Shown piece by piece: positions 45,830-60,967 of a DNA stretch of 64,000 bases. The position numbers and the translations under genes were made by a program. Every line of letters starts with the position of its first letter. The stretch's first letter is position 1. The DNA comes from Oleomonas cavernae (lineage in GTDB: Bacteria > Pseudomonadota > Alphaproteobacteria > Zavarziniales > Zavarziniaceae). The stretch covers positions 3,008,909 to 3,072,908 of the forward strand of contig NZ_QYUK01000011.1 in assembly GCF_003590945.1 (NCBI RefSeq), in the 5' to 3' direction. The notes beneath the pieces were generated by a model that was not told the DNA's origin, did not search any database, and saw only the letters and a program-made list of their open reading frames with translations.

Positions 45830-45843
45830 TTGATTTCAATCAA
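45830..45843. promoter_or_regulatory. perfect FNR/FixK-type box upstream of ompW
   Basis: TTGATTTCAATCAA is an exact match to TTGAT-N4-ATCAA, centred 83 bases upstream of the ompW ATG. OmpW is a known FNR-regulated outer-membrane protein in other bacteria, so activation at low oxygen is likely. The divergent helicase start is 100 bases away. Confidence 0.85.
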
Positions 45844-49690: not shown

Positions 49691-51129
49691 TGCCTTGGTC
49701 CTTCGAAACGGGCCGGGGTGGTGACGGTCAGATCGCGGGCCGCGTCATGAATGTTGAAATGGTAGTCGATCGGCTCGCCCGCCCATTGATCAGTATCAAG
49801 GCGCACGAACAGACGCAGCGCGGCCACGGTATCGGGGGCCAGTTCCAGGCTCGGCGCCGCCTCGCCCTCGTGCCCCAGGACGGTCAGCTGGCCCTGCGCC
49901 AGGCCGTCCAGGCTGATGATGATGTGCTGGGGCTGGTTGGTCTTGTTCAGCAGCTTGAGCGTATAGCCGTTGCGCAGGTCGCCGTCCGACAGGCGCACGA
50001 ACAGCGGGTTGCGATCCGGCAGCACGCTGGCCTCCAGCGGCGAGCGCGCCAGCAACGCCCACAGCACGGCCGCCCCGGCCGCCGCGAAGACGACGAAGTA
50101 GCCGAGCGTCCGCAAGCGGATGAAATGCCATTGCCGCGGCTTGCCGGCGGCGCCCAGCGCCATGTTGCGTTCGGTATCGTAGCCGATCAGCCCGTGGGGC
50201 AGGCCGACCTTGTCCATGATGCCGTCGCAGGCATCGACGCACAGCCCGCACGAGATGCAGCTCATCTGCAGGCCGCCGCGGATGTCGATGCCGGTCGGGC
50301 AGACCTCGACGCACTGGCGACAATCGATGCAATGACCGCGCCCCTCCCAGCCGTCGCCGGCCTTGTGCTTGCCGCGCTTCTCGCCGCGCCAGTCGCGATA
50401 CGACACCACCAGCGTGTCGCGGTCGAACATGGCAGACTGGAAGCGGGCATAGGGACACATGAAGGTACACACGCTTTCGCGCGCCCAGCCAGCCAGCAGA
50501 TAGGTCGAGAAGGTCAGCAGTCCGATGGTGATATAGACGCCGGCGCCCGCGGTGCCGAGAAACAACTGCGGCATCACCGTCGGTGCGTCGTTGAAATAGA
50601 GAATCCAGGCACCGCCGGTCGCCAAGCCGATGGCGATCCACAGGCTGTGCTTGGCCAGGCGCTGGGCGATCTTGGACACCGTCCACGGCGCTTTGGCCAG
50701 GCGCAGGCGCTGCGCCCGGTCACCCTCGACCCAGCGCTCCACCATCATGAACAGGTCGGTCCAGACGGTCTGCGGGCAGGCAAAGCCGCACCACACGCGG
50801 CCCAGCATGGCGGTCACGAAGAACAGGCCGATCGCCGCGACGATCAGCAGGCCCGTGATGATGTAGATCTCCTGCGGCCAGATCTCGAACCACAGGAAAT
50901 AGGCCTTGCGCCCGGGCAGGTCGATCAGCACCGCCTGGTCGGGCGCGAAGGGGCCCCGGTCGAAACGCAACCAGGGCACCCCCCAGTAGATCGCAAGCAG
51001 GACGGTCATGACCGCCCATTTGATCCGGCGAAACGGCCCCTTGACTTTCTTGGGGACGACCGGCGGCCGCGCGAACCACAGGGGGCTGTCCTCTTGTGGT
51101 TCGGCTGCCGCAGGCTGCAGGGAGGCCAT
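49687..51129 (-). CDS. ccoG: cbb3 oxidase accessory protein FixG/CcoG
   Basis: A 480-residue polyferredoxin-like membrane protein, proposed to reduce copper during cbb3 assembly. Five or so membrane helices are interleaved with cysteine motifs: CGFACPQTVW, CTFMCPYARFQ and a 2x[4Fe-4S] cluster ferredoxin domain (CIDCRQCVEVCP and CISCGLCVDACD). The C-terminal immunoglobulin-like part (LSDGDLRNGYTLKLLNKTNQPQHI) is typical. The ATG at 51129 begins MASLQPAAAEPQED; an upstream ORF extension to 51264 overlaps ccoP in another frame and is discarded. A 29-bp gap separates it from ccoP. Confidence 0.94.
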   Translation of the reverse strand: MASLQPAAAEPQEDSPLWFARPPVVPKKVKGPFRRIKWAVMTVLLAIYWGVPWLRFDRGPFAPDQAVLIDLPGRKAYFLWFEIWPQEIYIITGLLIVAAIGLFFVTAMLGRVWCGFACPQTVWTDLFMMVERWVEGDRAQRLRLAKAPWTVSKIAQRLAKHSLWIAIGLATGGAWILYFNDAPTVMPQLFLGTAGAGVYITIGLLTFSTYLLAGWARESVCTFMCPYARFQSAMFDRDTLVVSYRDWRGEKRGKHKAGDGWEGRGHCIDCRQCVEVCPTGIDIRGGLQMSCISCGLCVDACDGIMDKVGLPHGLIGYDTERNMALGAAGKPRQWHFIRLRTLGYFVVFAAAGAAVLWALLARSPLEASVLPDRNPLFVRLSDGDLRNGYTLKLLNKTNQPQHIIISLDGLAQGQLTVLGHEGEAAPSLELAPDTVAALRLFVRLDTDQWAGEPIDYHFNIHDAARDLTVTTPARFEGPRQ

Positions 51130-54532: not shown

Positions 54533-54603
54533 GGCCGGCGCCCTAGGGAGGCCGCAGCATTGCGACAAGTTAGCCCGCTTTGATGCCCCCGGAGGGAAAC
54601 CAG

Positions 54604-54837
54604 ATGTCCAACGCCCAGTACAAGACCGCGGTAGCGCCGGCCGCGCGCCTTCAGGCCTACAGCCGGGTCGAGGGAGCGATCGCCCCGGTTCTGATGGCGG
54701 CGGCCTTTTCCGCCATCGGCGGTTTTGGCGTCATGCTCGCCGCCAAGGCGCCCGACGACTACGGCTATGTCGCCGGCTTCGGCTTCCTGATGTTCGCCTT
54801 CGTCATGGCCATGCGCTATTTCGGCAATCGGGTCTGA
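54604..54837 (+). CDS. small membrane protein divergent from ccoN
   Basis: A 77-residue protein with two membrane helices (GAIAPVLMAAAFSAIGGFGVMLAA and YGYVAGFGFLMFAFVMAMRYF) and no other feature. GGAGGG precedes the ATG at 54604, which is favoured over an upstream in-frame ATG at 54580. The divergent position facing ccoN across an FNR box suggests expression with the oxidase. A role in oxidase function is inferred from position only; no family is recognised. Confidence 0.75.
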   Translation: MSNAQYKTAVAPAARLQAYSRVEGAIAPVLMAAAFSAIGGFGVMLAAKAPDDYGYVAGFGFLMFAFVMAMRYFGNRV

Positions 54838-54849
54838 GGCCGGCGGCCG

Positions 54850-55638
54850 GTGCAGACCATGGAGCCCAACGGCGTGATCCCTATTCGCCTCCTCGAAGGC
54901 GACCCGACCGCGCGCTGGCTCAAGGCGGCCTATGCCGATCTGCGCCGCAGCCCCGGCGTCAGCCTGTCCTATGGCCTGGCGCTCAGCCTGCTGTCGTGGA
55001 TCGTAACCCTGGCCATCATCGCCGACGAGCGCTGGTTCCTGCTGCTGCCACTGCTCGGCGGCTTCATGTTCCTGGCACCGCTGATCGCGGTCGGCCTCTA
55101 TGAGGCGAGCCGCCGCCACGAGGCCGGCCTGCCCGTCACCATCGTCGATGCCTTAAGCGCGGTCCGGCGCAACGCCGGACAGATCGCCCTGATGGGCTTG
55201 GTCCTCGCCCTGTTCTTCCTGGCCTGGACACGCATCGCCCTGTTGCTGTTTGCCCTGTTCTTCGGCTCGGCGCCGCCGCCCGTCGCCGATCTTTTCGGCG
55301 CGATTTTCCTGACCACCGACAATCTGGCCTTCGTCCTGCTGTCGAATGCCGTCGGCCTGGTTCTGGCCGCCGTCGTCTTCGCCATCAGCGCCATCTCGAT
55401 CCCGATGCTGCTCGACCGCGACGTCGACGTCGTCACGGCGATCGCCACCTCCGTGCGGGCCTGCCGTGCCAACTGGCAGATCATGATCGGCTGGGCCGCC
55501 CTGATCGTGCTCATCATCGGCCTGGGCGCCATCACCTTCTACGTGGGCCTTGCCGTCGCCTACCCGCTCATCGGCCACGCCACCTGGGCGGCTTACCGTG
55601 AACTCGTGCCGCGGGGTCCTCTGGACCCGGCCGGCTGA
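54850..55638 (+). CDS. DUF2189 domain-containing membrane protein
   Basis: A 262-residue membrane protein of the DUF2189 family. It has about six membrane helices and the family pattern LKAAYADLRRSPGVSLSYGLALSLLSW near the N-terminus and SVRACRANWQIMIGWAALIVLIIGLG near the end. It starts with GTG at 54850, with an ATG three codons later as an alternative; neither has a strong site. It follows the small membrane protein by 12 bases, in one likely operon. DUF2189 genes often occur next to cbb3 or denitrification genes, but no activity is known. Confidence 0.85.
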   Translation: MQTMEPNGVIPIRLLEGDPTARWLKAAYADLRRSPGVSLSYGLALSLLSWIVTLAIIADERWFLLLPLLGGFMFLAPLIAVGLYEASRRHEAGLPVTIVDALSAVRRNAGQIALMGLVLALFFLAWTRIALLLFALFFGSAPPPVADLFGAIFLTTDNLAFVLLSNAVGLVLAAVVFAISAISIPMLLDRDVDVVTAIATSVRACRANWQIMIGWAALIVLIIGLGAITFYVGLAVAYPLIGHATWAAYRELVPRGPLDPAG

Positions 55639-55650
55639 GGGAAGCGCGCC

Positions 55651-55956
55651 ATGTTTTGCTGCCCACCCGTTGCCGAGCGGCAGGAGCCTGCCGCCCCCAC
55701 ACGCTCACCGCCCGCAAGCCCGCCCCTCGCGCCAAAGGCCAGGCGCCGCTCGCCGTGGCAGGCGATCGTCGCAACCCTGCGCGAACCCGCCTTCGCCCTG
55801 CTGTTCGCCGCCAGCCTGCTCCACTTCGCCTTCGGCGATCCGACGCAGGCCGGGCTGCTCCTCGGCCTCTGCCTCCTGTCTGCAGCCATTGCCGTCGCCC
55901 TGAAAATGCGCGACACGGCCCCGCACGACCAGCCCGGCAACGACACCGAGATGTGA
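55651..55956 (+). CDS. P-type ATPase N-terminal-like membrane protein (fragment)
   Basis: A 101-residue protein with one or two membrane helices. Residues 37-85 (IVATLREPAFALLFAASLLHFAFGDPTQ and following) align with the N-terminal membrane pair of the full P-type ATPase at 56506-59106 (IIADTVCEPMFALLLAAGLLYFFLGD). No catalytic part follows. It is either a decayed duplicate of the ATPase start or a small protein derived from it. A signal peptide is absent, and the first 35 residues are a proline-rich cytoplasmic stretch. It follows DUF2189 by 12 bases. Confidence 0.65.
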   Translation: MFCCPPVAERQEPAAPTRSPPASPPLAPKARRRSPWQAIVATLREPAFALLFAASLLHFAFGDPTQAGLLLGLCLLSAAIAVALKMRDTAPHDQPGNDTEM

Positions 55957-55975
55957 TCTGCCGGGTGGCCGGCCC

Positions 55976-55989
55976 TTGACCAAGGTCAA
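55976..55989. promoter_or_regulatory. FNR/FixK-type box upstream of the ATPase remnant
   Basis: TTGACCAAGGTCAA is a perfect palindrome fitting TTGA-N6-TCAA. An FNR-type activator at the usual -41.5 position would put the transcript start near 56024, before the ATG at 56086, and would serve the remnant and the full ATPase gene after it. Confidence 0.75.
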
Positions 55990-56085
55990 GACCATTCCGT
56001 CCAAAACAGCCGATGATCGACAGGCACCGGCATTGGGCCCTGGTTGCCACCTGTAAGATTATAGCGAGGACGCGTGGTTTGCGAC

Positions 56086-56513
56086 ATGCAGAGCACCCAG
56101 GCCCGATACGGATCCGCCGGCGGCGAGCCCGCAGGCGATCGCCCCCGGGCCTGAGCACGGCGCAAGCGGCGGCGCACCTGGCCCAGGACGGTCCCAACCT
56201 CGCCGTGGTCGGCCTGCGGCGCGGCCTGATCGCCAAGCTCGGCAAGCGACTGGCTGAGCCGTTGGTCGCCATCCTGCTGCTCGCGGCGGCGGATGTCATC
56301 CTGCTGGCGTCGGACCTCGGGGTGCTGGCCGTGGCCTTGCTGCTGGCGCTGACCCCGCTGGGGGCCGTCGTCGGCTTCGTCGCCCTGCCGCCGGTCATCC
56401 TGCTGGCCATCGCCGGTGTCAGCCTTGCCTATCTCGCCTGTGCCGAAATGCTGAAGCATGTCGCCATGGCACCCCGCCATCGCCGTACCGAGCGAGCGCA
56501 TCGTCATGTCTAG
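56086..56513 (+). pseudogene. P-type ATPase remnant: N- and C-terminal parts joined, catalytic core missing (frameshifted)
   Basis: Repaired, this encodes 142 residues. GLSTAQAAAHLAQDGPN (the ATPase N-terminal domain start), LGKRLAEPLVAILLLAAADVILLA (first membrane helices) and then directly ALTPLGAVVGFVALPPVILLAIAGVSLAYLACAEMLKH, which looks like the last helices of Mg2+-type P-ATPases. The phosphorylation, nucleotide-binding and TGES domains are absent. The frame needs one base at the CCCCC run at 56142-56146; without it a frame starting at 56013 runs through but begins with an arginine-rich non-family leader. The end overlaps the next ATPase start. Best read as an internally deleted ATPase copy. 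Confidence 0.65.
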
Positions 56514-59106
56514 CCTGCCGTTCACCAAGTCGGCCGGGCCGTCGCCCAAACGCCGGCCCACCCTGGCGATGCCGCCCGCCCTCGACACCGGCCTGACCGA
56601 GCGGGAAGCCGCCGCCCGCCTGCGCCGGGACGGCGCTAACGAACTGCCCAGCGGCGAGCACCGGGCGCCATTGCGGATCATCGCCGATACCGTCTGCGAG
56701 CCGATGTTCGCCTTGCTGCTGGCGGCGGGCCTGCTCTACTTCTTTCTCGGCGACGCGCTGGAAGCCTCGGTCTTGTTCGGCTTTGCGACCTTGTCGGTCC
56801 TGATCGCCGTCGTCCAGGAACTGCGCACCGAGCATGCCCTGGATGCCCTGCGCGACCTCTCCAGCCCGCGCGCCATGGTCGTGCGCGAGGGCAAGACGAA
56901 GCGGATTCCCGGCCGCGAGGTGGTGCGGGGCGATATCATCCTGGTGGGCGAGGGCGACCGGGTTCCCGCCGACGGGGTGCTGGTCGCCGCGACGGGCCTG
57001 GAGATCGACGAATCGCTCCTGACCGGCGAATCGGTTCCCGTTTGCAAAGTCGCGGCGGAGACCACCGAGATTGCAGATATCGCGCCTGCCCGCGCCGGCA
57101 CGGACGATACCGGTACCTTGTTCTCGGGCACGCTGGTGGTGCGGGGGCAGGGCCGTGCCCTGGTGCTTGCCACTGGCCGGCGCACGGAACTGGGCCGTAT
57201 CGGCCAGAGCCTGCACAGGATCGAACGCGAACCGCCGCGCCTGCGCGCCCAGACCCGCCGCCTGGTCCGCGTCTTCGCGATCGTGGCCGGCGTGGTCAGC
57301 CTCCTCGCCACGGTCCTGTACGGCCTGACGGGCCACGACTGGCCGGCCGCCGCCCTGGGCGGCATTGCGCTGGCCATGTCGATGCTGCCCGAGGAATTTC
57401 CCTTGATCCTCACGGTCTTCACCGTGATGGGCGCCATCCGCATCGGCAAGGCCCGGGTCCTGACCCGGCGCGCCGCGGCGATCGAGGCCCTGGGCGCCGC
57501 CACCGTGCTGTGTACCGACAAGACCGGCACGCTGACCCAGAACCGCATGTCGGTGGTGGAACTGCATGATGCCTCAGGTCTCGCCCTGCCCCTGCCGGCC
57601 GATGGCGGGCCGCTGACCGAACGGGCCGCGGCCCTGGCGGCGATTGCCCGCCATGCCAGCCGCGACCAGACCTTCGATCCGATGGAACGGGCCCTGCACG
57701 AGCTGGCGGCCGGCCAGACCGACGCCGGCTGGCCACCGGCCCCGGCCCGGGAATTCGGCTTGCGGGACGACCTGCCGGCCATGGCGCGGGCCTGGGGCAA
57801 TGGCACCGCCGAGCGCCAGCGGCTGGCGGCAAAGGGCGCGCCCGAGGCCATCGTTCGCCTGTGCCGGCTGCCGCCGCCGGAAGCCGGGCAGGTCCTCGCG
57901 GCGGCAAATGAGATGGCCGGCCGCGGCCTGCGCGTGCTGGGGCTGGCCGACGGCCTGCTCGAAGCGGGCGCCGGCGATCGCCTGGAGGATCAGCCACTGC
58001 ACTTCCGCGGCCTGGTCGGCCTCGCCGATCCGCTGCGGCCGGGTGTGCGCGCCGCCGTCGCCGAGTGCCGCGCGGCGGGGATTCGCATCGTCATGGTCAC
58101 GGGCGATCATCCCGCCACCGCCGCCGCCATCGCCGGCGAGGCCGGCCTGGCGGCAACGCCGGTGGTTACCGGCGGCGAACTGGCCGATCTCGGCCCAGCG
58201 GCCTTCGCCGCCTGCGCGGCCGATGCCGCGGTGTTTGCCCGCATCCGCCCGGAACAGAAGCTGCGCCTGGTCGAGGTGCTCAAGGAAAAGGGCGCCATCG
58301 TCGCCATGACCGGCGACGGCGTGAACGATGCGCCGGCCCTGAAGGCCGCCCATATCGGCATCGCCATGGGCGGGCGCGGCACCGATGTCGCCCGCGAGGC
58401 GGCGGCCATGGTGCTGCTCGACGATGATTTCGGCTCCATCGTCCGCACCATTCGCCTGGGCCGCCGGACCTTCGACAACCTGCGCAAGGCCATGGGCTTC
58501 GTCATGTCGATCCATGTGCCGATCGCGGGCCTCGCCTTCCTGCCGCTGCTGCTGGGCCTGCCGCCCCTGCTGGGGCCGCTGCACATCGCCTTCCTCGAGA
58601 TGGTCATCGACCCGGTGTGTTCGATCGCCTTCGAGGCGGAGCCGGCGGAACCCGACCTGATGCGCCGCCCGCCGCGCAAGGCGACTGATGCCCTGCTCAC
58701 CGGCACCTTGATGATCTGGAGCCTGGTCCAGGGGGCGACGGCGCTGCTGGCCACGGCCGCGGTCTATCTGCTGTCGCTCGAGGCCGGACTGTCCCTCGAC
58801 GAGATGCGCAGCCGGACGTTCCTGACCCTGGTGCTGGCGAATGTGGCCTTGATCATCGTCGACCGGTCGTTCAGCTCGTCCCTGCTGACGGCCCTGACGC
58901 GGCCCAATGCCGCGCTGTCGACGGTCATGGCCATCGCCGGGGCGATGCTGATCCTGGTCCTGGGGGTGCCGCAGGTAGCTGTGTTGTTTCACTTTGGCCC
59001 GCTCGGCCTCGGCGACATCGGCATGGCTTTCGCCGCGGCACTGGCCGTGCTGTTGCTGCTGGAGACGGCCAAGGCGACGGGGATGGCGGCCAAGCTGCGC
59101 CAATAG
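56506..59106 (+). CDS. cation-translocating P-type ATPase (Ca2+/Mg2+-type)
   Basis: An 866-residue type II P-type ATPase. The N-terminal domain is GLTEREAAARLRRDGANELP, TGES is in SLLTGESVPV, phosphorylation is at Asp in CTDKTGTLTQNRM, nucleotide-binding motifs are KGAPEAIVRLC, and the hinge is TGDGVNDAPALKAAHIGIAMGGRGTDVAREAAAMVLLDDDF. Membrane helices in the C-terminal part include MSIHVPIAGLAFLPLLLGLP. There is no cysteine metal site, so it is not a heavy-metal ATPase. The exact ion cannot be fixed. The ATG at 56506 overlaps the stop of the remnant; an upstream ATG at 56458 is possible. The FNR box at 55976 may control it. Confidence 0.9.
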   Translation: MSSLPFTKSAGPSPKRRPTLAMPPALDTGLTEREAAARLRRDGANELPSGEHRAPLRIIADTVCEPMFALLLAAGLLYFFLGDALEASVLFGFATLSVLIAVVQELRTEHALDALRDLSSPRAMVVREGKTKRIPGREVVRGDIILVGEGDRVPADGVLVAATGLEIDESLLTGESVPVCKVAAETTEIADIAPARAGTDDTGTLFSGTLVVRGQGRALVLATGRRTELGRIGQSLHRIEREPPRLRAQTRRLVRVFAIVAGVVSLLATVLYGLTGHDWPAAALGGIALAMSMLPEEFPLILTVFTVMGAIRIGKARVLTRRAAAIEALGAATVLCTDKTGTLTQNRMSVVELHDASGLALPLPADGGPLTERAAALAAIARHASRDQTFDPMERALHELAAGQTDAGWPPAPAREFGLRDDLPAMARAWGNGTAERQRLAAKGAPEAIVRLCRLPPPEAGQVLAAANEMAGRGLRVLGLADGLLEAGAGDRLEDQPLHFRGLVGLADPLRPGVRAAVAECRAAGIRIVMVTGDHPATAAAIAGEAGLAATPVVTGGELADLGPAAFAACAADAAVFARIRPEQKLRLVEVLKEKGAIVAMTGDGVNDAPALKAAHIGIAMGGRGTDVAREAAAMVLLDDDFGSIVRTIRLGRRTFDNLRKAMGFVMSIHVPIAGLAFLPLLLGLPPLLGPLHIAFLEMVIDPVCSIAFEAEPAEPDLMRRPPRKATDALLTGTLMIWSLVQGATALLATAAVYLLSLEAGLSLDEMRSRTFLTLVLANVALIIVDRSFSSSLLTALTRPNAALSTVMAIAGAMLILVLGVPQVAVLFHFGPLGLGDIGMAFAAALAVLLLLETAKATGMAAKLRQ

Positions 59107-60953: not shown

Positions 60954-60967
60954 TTGATCCTGGTCAA
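60954..60967. promoter_or_regulatory. FNR/FixK-type box between CBS gene and phaC
   Basis: TTGATCCTGGTCAA fits TTGA-N6-TCAA, in the divergent gap, centred about 64 bases before phaC and 118 bases before the CBS gene. It may activate both under low oxygen. Confidence 0.72.

Follow-up and report, generated by a model that had tools for sequence, protein, structure and literature searches.

Two truncated P-type ATPase reading frames ahead of an intact pump gene in Oleomonas cavernae: probable relics and a possibly inherited promoter

Why should two short open reading frames, each resembling pieces of a P-type ATPase, stand directly ahead of a complete ATPase gene? The question is posed by a locus of Oleomonas cavernae (assembly GCF_003590945.1, contig NZ_QYUK01000011.1, positions 3,008,909-3,072,908 of the forward strand); this whole stretch of 64,000 nt is the window, and coordinates below refer to it. 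An earlier note had described two remnants in front of an intact pump, and the arrangement is as described: the 866-aa gene downstream of them carries the motifs TGES, DKTGT, KGAPE and GDGVNDAP (at residues 173, 338, 443 and 603). The same note proposed that the remnants might be decaying duplicates or, alternatively, membrane fragments retained as regulators. The features on which the argument depends are as follows.

54850-55638, plus strand: gene for a DUF2189 membrane protein (PF09955, 133.1 bits), ending 12 nt upstream of remnant 1
55651-55956, plus strand: remnant 1, a 101-aa ORF corresponding to the M1-M2 hairpin of a P2A-type ATPase, with no other recognisable pump part
55976-55989, plus strand: FixK/FNR-type palindrome TTGACCAAGGTCAA, a match to TTGAN6TCAA
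56013-56513, plus strand: open frame of remnant 2, 166 aa from ATG 56013 in the ORF listing, with PF00690 above cut-off; TTG 56079 is probably the start
56148-56297, plus strand: N-domain and M1 of an MgtA-like ATPase, kept in remnant 2 (50 aligned residues, mean identity 39.2% to eight full-length copies)
56298-56468, plus strand: M9-M10 of an MgtA-like ATPase, kept in remnant 2 by in-frame fusion (mean 40.9%, best 50.9% to full-length copies)
56506-59106, plus strand: intact P2A-type ATPase, 866 aa (motifs; TIGR01522 the best NCBIfam model), with an alternative start at ATG 56458

The cluster is flanked upstream by a gene that, from its translation, we take to encode a ccoN-type oxidase; beyond the pump, a domain search identified genes for an alcohol dehydrogenase, a CBS-BON protein and a PHB polymerase. 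Between the ccoN-type and DUF2189 genes there is also an 85-aa ORF (54580-54837) with gene-like codon use (0.572 per codon) and no Pfam match.

The intact pump and remnant 1

By model score and alignment the intact pump is nearest to the PMR1-type P2A class, unlike remnant 2, which is of the MgtA-like P3B class. Its best NCBIfam model is TIGR01522 (PMR1-type Ca2+ ATPase), at 433.4 bits, which lies below the equivalog cut-off of 798.3, so that Ca2+ is only a candidate for the transported ion; the nearest solved structures are calcium-transporting ATPases, including Listeria lmo0841. When the pump served as seed in a search for related loci, 80 relatives out of 206 were retained; they share 30-38% identity with it, and many come from Streptomyces.

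Remnant 1 aligns with the M1-M2 region of this adjoining pump at 42% identity over 78 aa (E 1.8e-10), and among 385 genomes of the class the adjoining pump is its best match. Against a profile of the hairpin – a profile that contains remnant 1 itself – it scores 86.3 bits (E 7.1e-24), and neither Pfam nor NCBIfam contains a model that matches it. The earlier claim that the 101-residue protein aligns with the N-terminal membrane pair of the following ATPase is upheld by these values. Mean identity of the remnant 1 hairpin to nine intact P2-type hairpins is nevertheless only 34.3%, whereas those nine share 52-64% on average with one another: by this comparison remnant 1 has drifted. The EP and GD positions are kept, the QE after M2 is lost, and the catalytic motifs TGES, DKTGT and GDGVNDAP are missing, so that remnant 1 is not a functional P-type ATPase. 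A structural model calculated without an alignment places helices at residues 35-61 and 64-89, with low confidence (mean pLDDT 67.7).

The ORF starts at an ATG with GAGGGAAG upstream, 12 nt past the preceding gene. Its codon score over the whole ORF (0.209 per codon) is below the 5% point of known-gene windows (0.254), and a frame scan locates gene-like codon use mainly across the hairpin. A lost N-domain was sought in the other upstream frames, and none was recognised; in the remnant's own frame an N-domain score of 10.0 bits at the M1 edge stands just above the highest value, 9.8, that was reached when 485 shuffles of another frame of the region were scored. Remnant 1 is probably an older M1-M2 leftover of a P2A-type pump.

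Remnant 2, a pump without its core

Remnant 2 contains the N-terminal domain of a cation ATPase (PF00690, Cation_ATPase_N: 31.4 bits, cut-off 20.4), while its score against the C-terminal domain (PF00689, Cation_ATPase_C) is 12.2 bits and thus below the cut-off of 27.3. For the C-terminus NCBIfam gives a weak Mg2+ ATPase match (E 6.6e-4), and in the search of class genomes M9-M10 of full-length pumps reach up to 52% identity to remnant 2. Against TIGR01524 it scores 13.7 bits where the cut-off is 610.75; on these scores it is a fragment of a TIGR01524-type protein, not a member of the family. We compared it with eight full-length MgtA-like pumps (open frames of 833-900 aa), six of which match remnant 2 at both ends and two (L159 and L164) at the C end only; the two that were scored in TIGR01524, L158 and L046, exceed the cut-off at 683.4 and 711.1 bits. 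Between M1 and M9, with a junction near 56298, remnant 2 lacks 703 residues by our script alignment and 701 in the BLAST register. The lost stretch comprises the A, P and N domains together with M2-M8, and with all catalytic motifs gone remnant 2 cannot work as a P-type ATPase. The reading of this product as an ATPase N-terminus joined to the last helices of an Mg2+-type pump, with the core missing, thus agrees with both the PF00690 match and the absence of some 700 residues. Both remnants show similarity to P-type ATPases above background (remnant 1 by its E-value against the pump, remnant 2 by passing the PF00690 cut-off), a check that the earlier note had proposed.

Could remnant 2 be a duplicate of the pump that follows it? 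The MgtA-like pumps, with identities of up to 41.6% at the N end and up to 55.8% at the C end, match it better than does its own P2A neighbour (31.5% at the N end; 27.8%, E 0.098, at the C end), and since the following pump is of another subfamily, remnant 2 is not its duplicate. The suggestion of decaying duplicates therefore survives in part: decay applies to both ORFs, duplication at most to remnant 1, and not to remnant 2, where an MgtA-like P3B fragment faces a PMR1-type P2A pump. A plasmid search with remnant 2 returned no match, and a sequence search of the PDB returned a single one, to an Mg2+ ATPase (E 0.88). The model of remnant 2 calculated without an alignment is poor (mean pLDDT 66.7) and draws M1-M9 inside one long helix.

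The retained parts have not drifted in the way that remnant 1 has. Their mean identities to the full-length copies (39.2% for N-domain/M1 and 40.9% for M9-M10) fall within the range that the full-length copies show among themselves (34-45%), and because of this, and of the gene-like codon use of the core, either the deletion is recent or the retained parts are constrained. The junction touches a 22-nt repeat (77% identity; 56288-56309 at the junction, 56387-56408 in M10) with 14 identical bases (56295-56308 and 56394-56407). Since the corresponding part of M9 reads VILIATSLG in L161, one of the full-length relatives, the repeat probably reflects hydrophobic codons common to both segments and not the trace of a deletion.

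In one respect the description of remnant 2 required correction. The product had been given as 142 residues at 56086-56513, which is not one frame: translation from ATG 56086 would run in another frame, which has four stops in this stretch and closes after 22 codons (stop at 56152-56154). The ATPase frame is 56013-56513, encoding 166 aa from ATG 56013 or 144 aa from TTG 56079; the latter, with GCGAGGA 8 nt upstream, appears to be the likeliest start. A missing 5' end of remnant 2 was looked for in the 56086 frame and not recognised (-1.3 bits). In the frame scan, gene-like codon use in the remnant 2 frame is confined to roughly 56152-56463. The core, at 0.709 per codon, exceeds the median of known-gene windows (0.614) and has no stop or frame break; the whole ORF from the TTG scores 0.387, and the leader (56079-56144) scores -0.82 in the remnant 2 frame and 0.03 in the 56086 frame. 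By codon use, both remnants thus consist of a homologous core and a 5' end unlike evolved coding sequence in the frame of the remnant.

Occurrence in related genomes

At E 0.001 remnant 2 finds matches in 34 of the 385 class genomes, its own included, and all 38 matches outside its own genome lie in frames of 394-1343 aa (up to ten candidates being scored in each genome). The hairpin profile matches 51 of the 385 genomes; each of its 51 matches outside the own genome lies in a frame of at least 483 aa, the sole short match being remnant 1 (up to 16 candidates scored in each genome). When remnant 1 itself was the query, 22 of the 385 genomes were matched, and two matches outside its own genome fall in short frames. 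Both were taken for chance: a 113-aa frame in a genome of the same genus (G004, E 9.5e-4) overlaps a coding region that we take to be NuoG-like, and a 152-aa frame in G210 (E 6.7e-4) covers only residues 3-51 of remnant 1; both are missing from the hairpin-profile matches. An ORF scan of 177 loci and the window with the hairpin profile produced eight matches shorter than 300 aa, of which seven are remnant 1 (in the window and in six loci from its own genome) and one is cut by a contig edge. Conservation of the remnants in related genomes, which had been put forward as a check, was accordingly not seen: no other short standalone form of either was confirmed among the 385 class genomes. The two ORFs have the marks of gene relics – homology to an intact family, loss of essential parts, and no short form found elsewhere.

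PF00690 matches twice in the O. cavernae genome, in remnant 2 and in the intact pump, and an MgtA-like query found no intact MgtA-like gene there. A close MgtA-like gene (46-54%) is present in one of five other genomes of the genus, G005 (L204:9729-11927, G005:C131). This gene lacks, in frame, about 172 residues at another place, between KGAP and DAPAL; the gap removes the GDGVND region, contains no N bases and leaves the gene above the TIGR01524 cut-off (654 bits); since the genome is 75% complete in 170 contigs, the gap may be a misassembly. Three of seven DUF2189 loci in relatives of the genus were examined (one on a 3.3-kb contig) and contain no ATPase gene, so that neither an empty nor an intact site was found; remnant 1 has one 21-residue low-complexity match in these loci. 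An intact gene at this site in relatives, named at the outset as evidence that would speak against remnants, was thus not encountered in the three loci, and as no intact copy from the same site was found, the deletion in remnant 2 is deduced from distant relatives.

Two further loci show adjoining frames that may be parts of one gene. Beside a P2A pump gene in G127 (L052:4928-5611), PHB polymerase matches occur in two adjoining short frames, possibly a broken phaC. In G010 (C6:12749-15068), two adjacent frames match P-type ATPases, one of 550 aa and an MgtA-like one of 394 aa; they may be a single copy with a broken frame.

Relics, leader or regulator

The palindrome TTGAN6TCAA occurs four times in the window, against 0.22 expected. 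The one at 55976-55989 stands 89 nt before TTG 56079 and, by our count, agrees with the FixK/FnrN consensus of PMC4999443 at 10 of 12 specified positions; the word 'ATPase' is absent from the main text of that regulon paper. The other three are at 45830-45843, 49786-49799 and 60954-60967, the last between the CBS-BON and PHB polymerase genes. An exact box precedes three of the eight MgtA-like genes and two of nine P2-type genes (own included; one of the eight others), while five of eight and seven of nine, respectively, have none within 700 nt upstream. For the O. cavernae pump, the sole exact box within that distance is the one before remnant 2. In G071 an MgtA-like and a P2A pump are encoded by convergent neighbouring genes, and a separate box or boxes belong to each, so the two kinds of pump co-occur elsewhere too. 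A scan of 55600-56600 for the sigma-70 consensus found no promoter. The stop of remnant 2 overlaps the start of the pump, at ATGTCTAG (56506-56513).

Taking these data together, we consider it probable that both ORFs are lineage-specific relics left by P-type ATPase genes of a cluster of low-oxygen ion pumps, and that remnant 2 is mainly an inherited promoter and leader. The FixK/FNR-type box would once have been followed by an MgtA-like Mg2+ ATPase gene, from whose interior about 700 codons would then have been deleted in frame to leave remnant 2, probably recently, because the retained parts have not drifted, whereas those of remnant 1 have. The box, formerly the promoter of the lost gene, may now drive the P2A pump, with remnant 2 persisting mainly as the stretch of leader between the two, and ribosomes perhaps reaching the pump start by way of its open frame and the overlap. 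The account works without any function for the small proteins themselves.

A stronger form of the relic explanation, and one compatible with it, is that remnant 2 is a leader ORF selected only for its reading frame, translational coupling opening the pump start and the amino acids being irrelevant. The stop/start overlap, the lack (as we read the sequence) of a clear ribosome-binding site belonging to the pump itself, and the position of the pump's only exact upstream box ahead of remnant 2 all favor coupling of this kind. Yet genes in dense operons often overlap, translation of the pump may begin at ATG 56458 or at another codon, and the start of the remnant 2 leader is uncertain; selection for the frame is thus possible, but we doubt it. 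Assembly or sequencing error, by which an intact MgtA-like gene was collapsed to the short form, is very unlikely. Such a collapse would fit the lack of an intact MgtA-like copy in a genome of 29 contigs and 96.28% completeness, and the repeat at the junction; but the junction fuses non-homologous M1 and M9 in frame and lies inside a contig of 4.37 Mb, and both copies of the repeat are in retained sequence, where shared hydrophobic codons are an equally good explanation or a better one.

There remains the suggestion that the fragments are regulators: on this view remnant 2, and perhaps remnant 1, would have been preserved because the small membrane protein binds the P2A pump expressed along with it and so affects how active the pump is, how it assembles or how fast it is turned over, by analogy with MgtR, MgtU and MgtS. 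The gene order lends this some color, in that remnant 2 lies directly before the pump, overlaps its start and shares with it a FixK/FNR-type box; moreover its membrane segments are undrifted, its core is unbroken and gene-like in codon use, and control of P-type ATPases by small proteins has been described (PMC10710835). Set against this are the failure to confirm a standalone form among the 385 class genomes, 5' leaders without the look of coding sequence in the frames of the remnants, and the origin of remnant 2 from a different class of pump than its neighbor; in addition, MgtR, MgtU and MgtS, which act on MgtA/MgtB, are membrane proteins of 28-31 aa that are not described as pump fragments in the passages of PMC10710835 concerned with them. 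We regard such a role as improbable. More improbable still is the full scenario in which an MgtA-like pump, through an internal deletion, became a small membrane protein (N-domain and M1 fused to M9 and M10) that at low oxygen is co-translated with a pump from a different subfamily and controls it. Most likely the locus reflects mostly ordinary gene decay with an inherited promoter, and if the ORFs are only relics it provides a small case of the pruning of a pump cluster, in which one core was lost in frame and an oxygen-responsive promoter apparently passed to the next gene. If, on the other hand, remnant 2 does act on the adjoining pump, it would show one way in which small membrane regulators can originate from the same sort of transporter as the one they target.

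Remnant 2 resembles the MgtA/MgtB-type Mg2+ P-type ATPases (P3B, TIGR01524) in possessing their N-domain/M1 and M9-M10, and differs from them in the loss of everything from M2 to M8, with the A, P and N domains included. The PMR1-type P2A Ca2+ ATPases (TIGR01522) supply the best-scoring NCBIfam model and the nearest structures for the intact pump, which nonetheless remains below their equivalog cut-off, and remnant 1 has only their M1-M2 hairpin. Unlike MgtR, MgtU and MgtS, the remnants are of 101 and about 144 aa, are recognisable pump fragments and are known here from sequence alone; nor were they found, among the class genomes, as the separate small gene conserved in relatives that we would expect of regulators of this type. 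A literature search, covering titles and the starts of abstracts, found no paper on standalone pump fragments of this kind, which does not prove that there is none. A function is reported for MntS of E. coli, whereas any function of the remnants would be putative; but MntS, which reportedly evolved from a signal peptide, is a possible precedent for the turning of a gene fragment into a regulator of a transporter.
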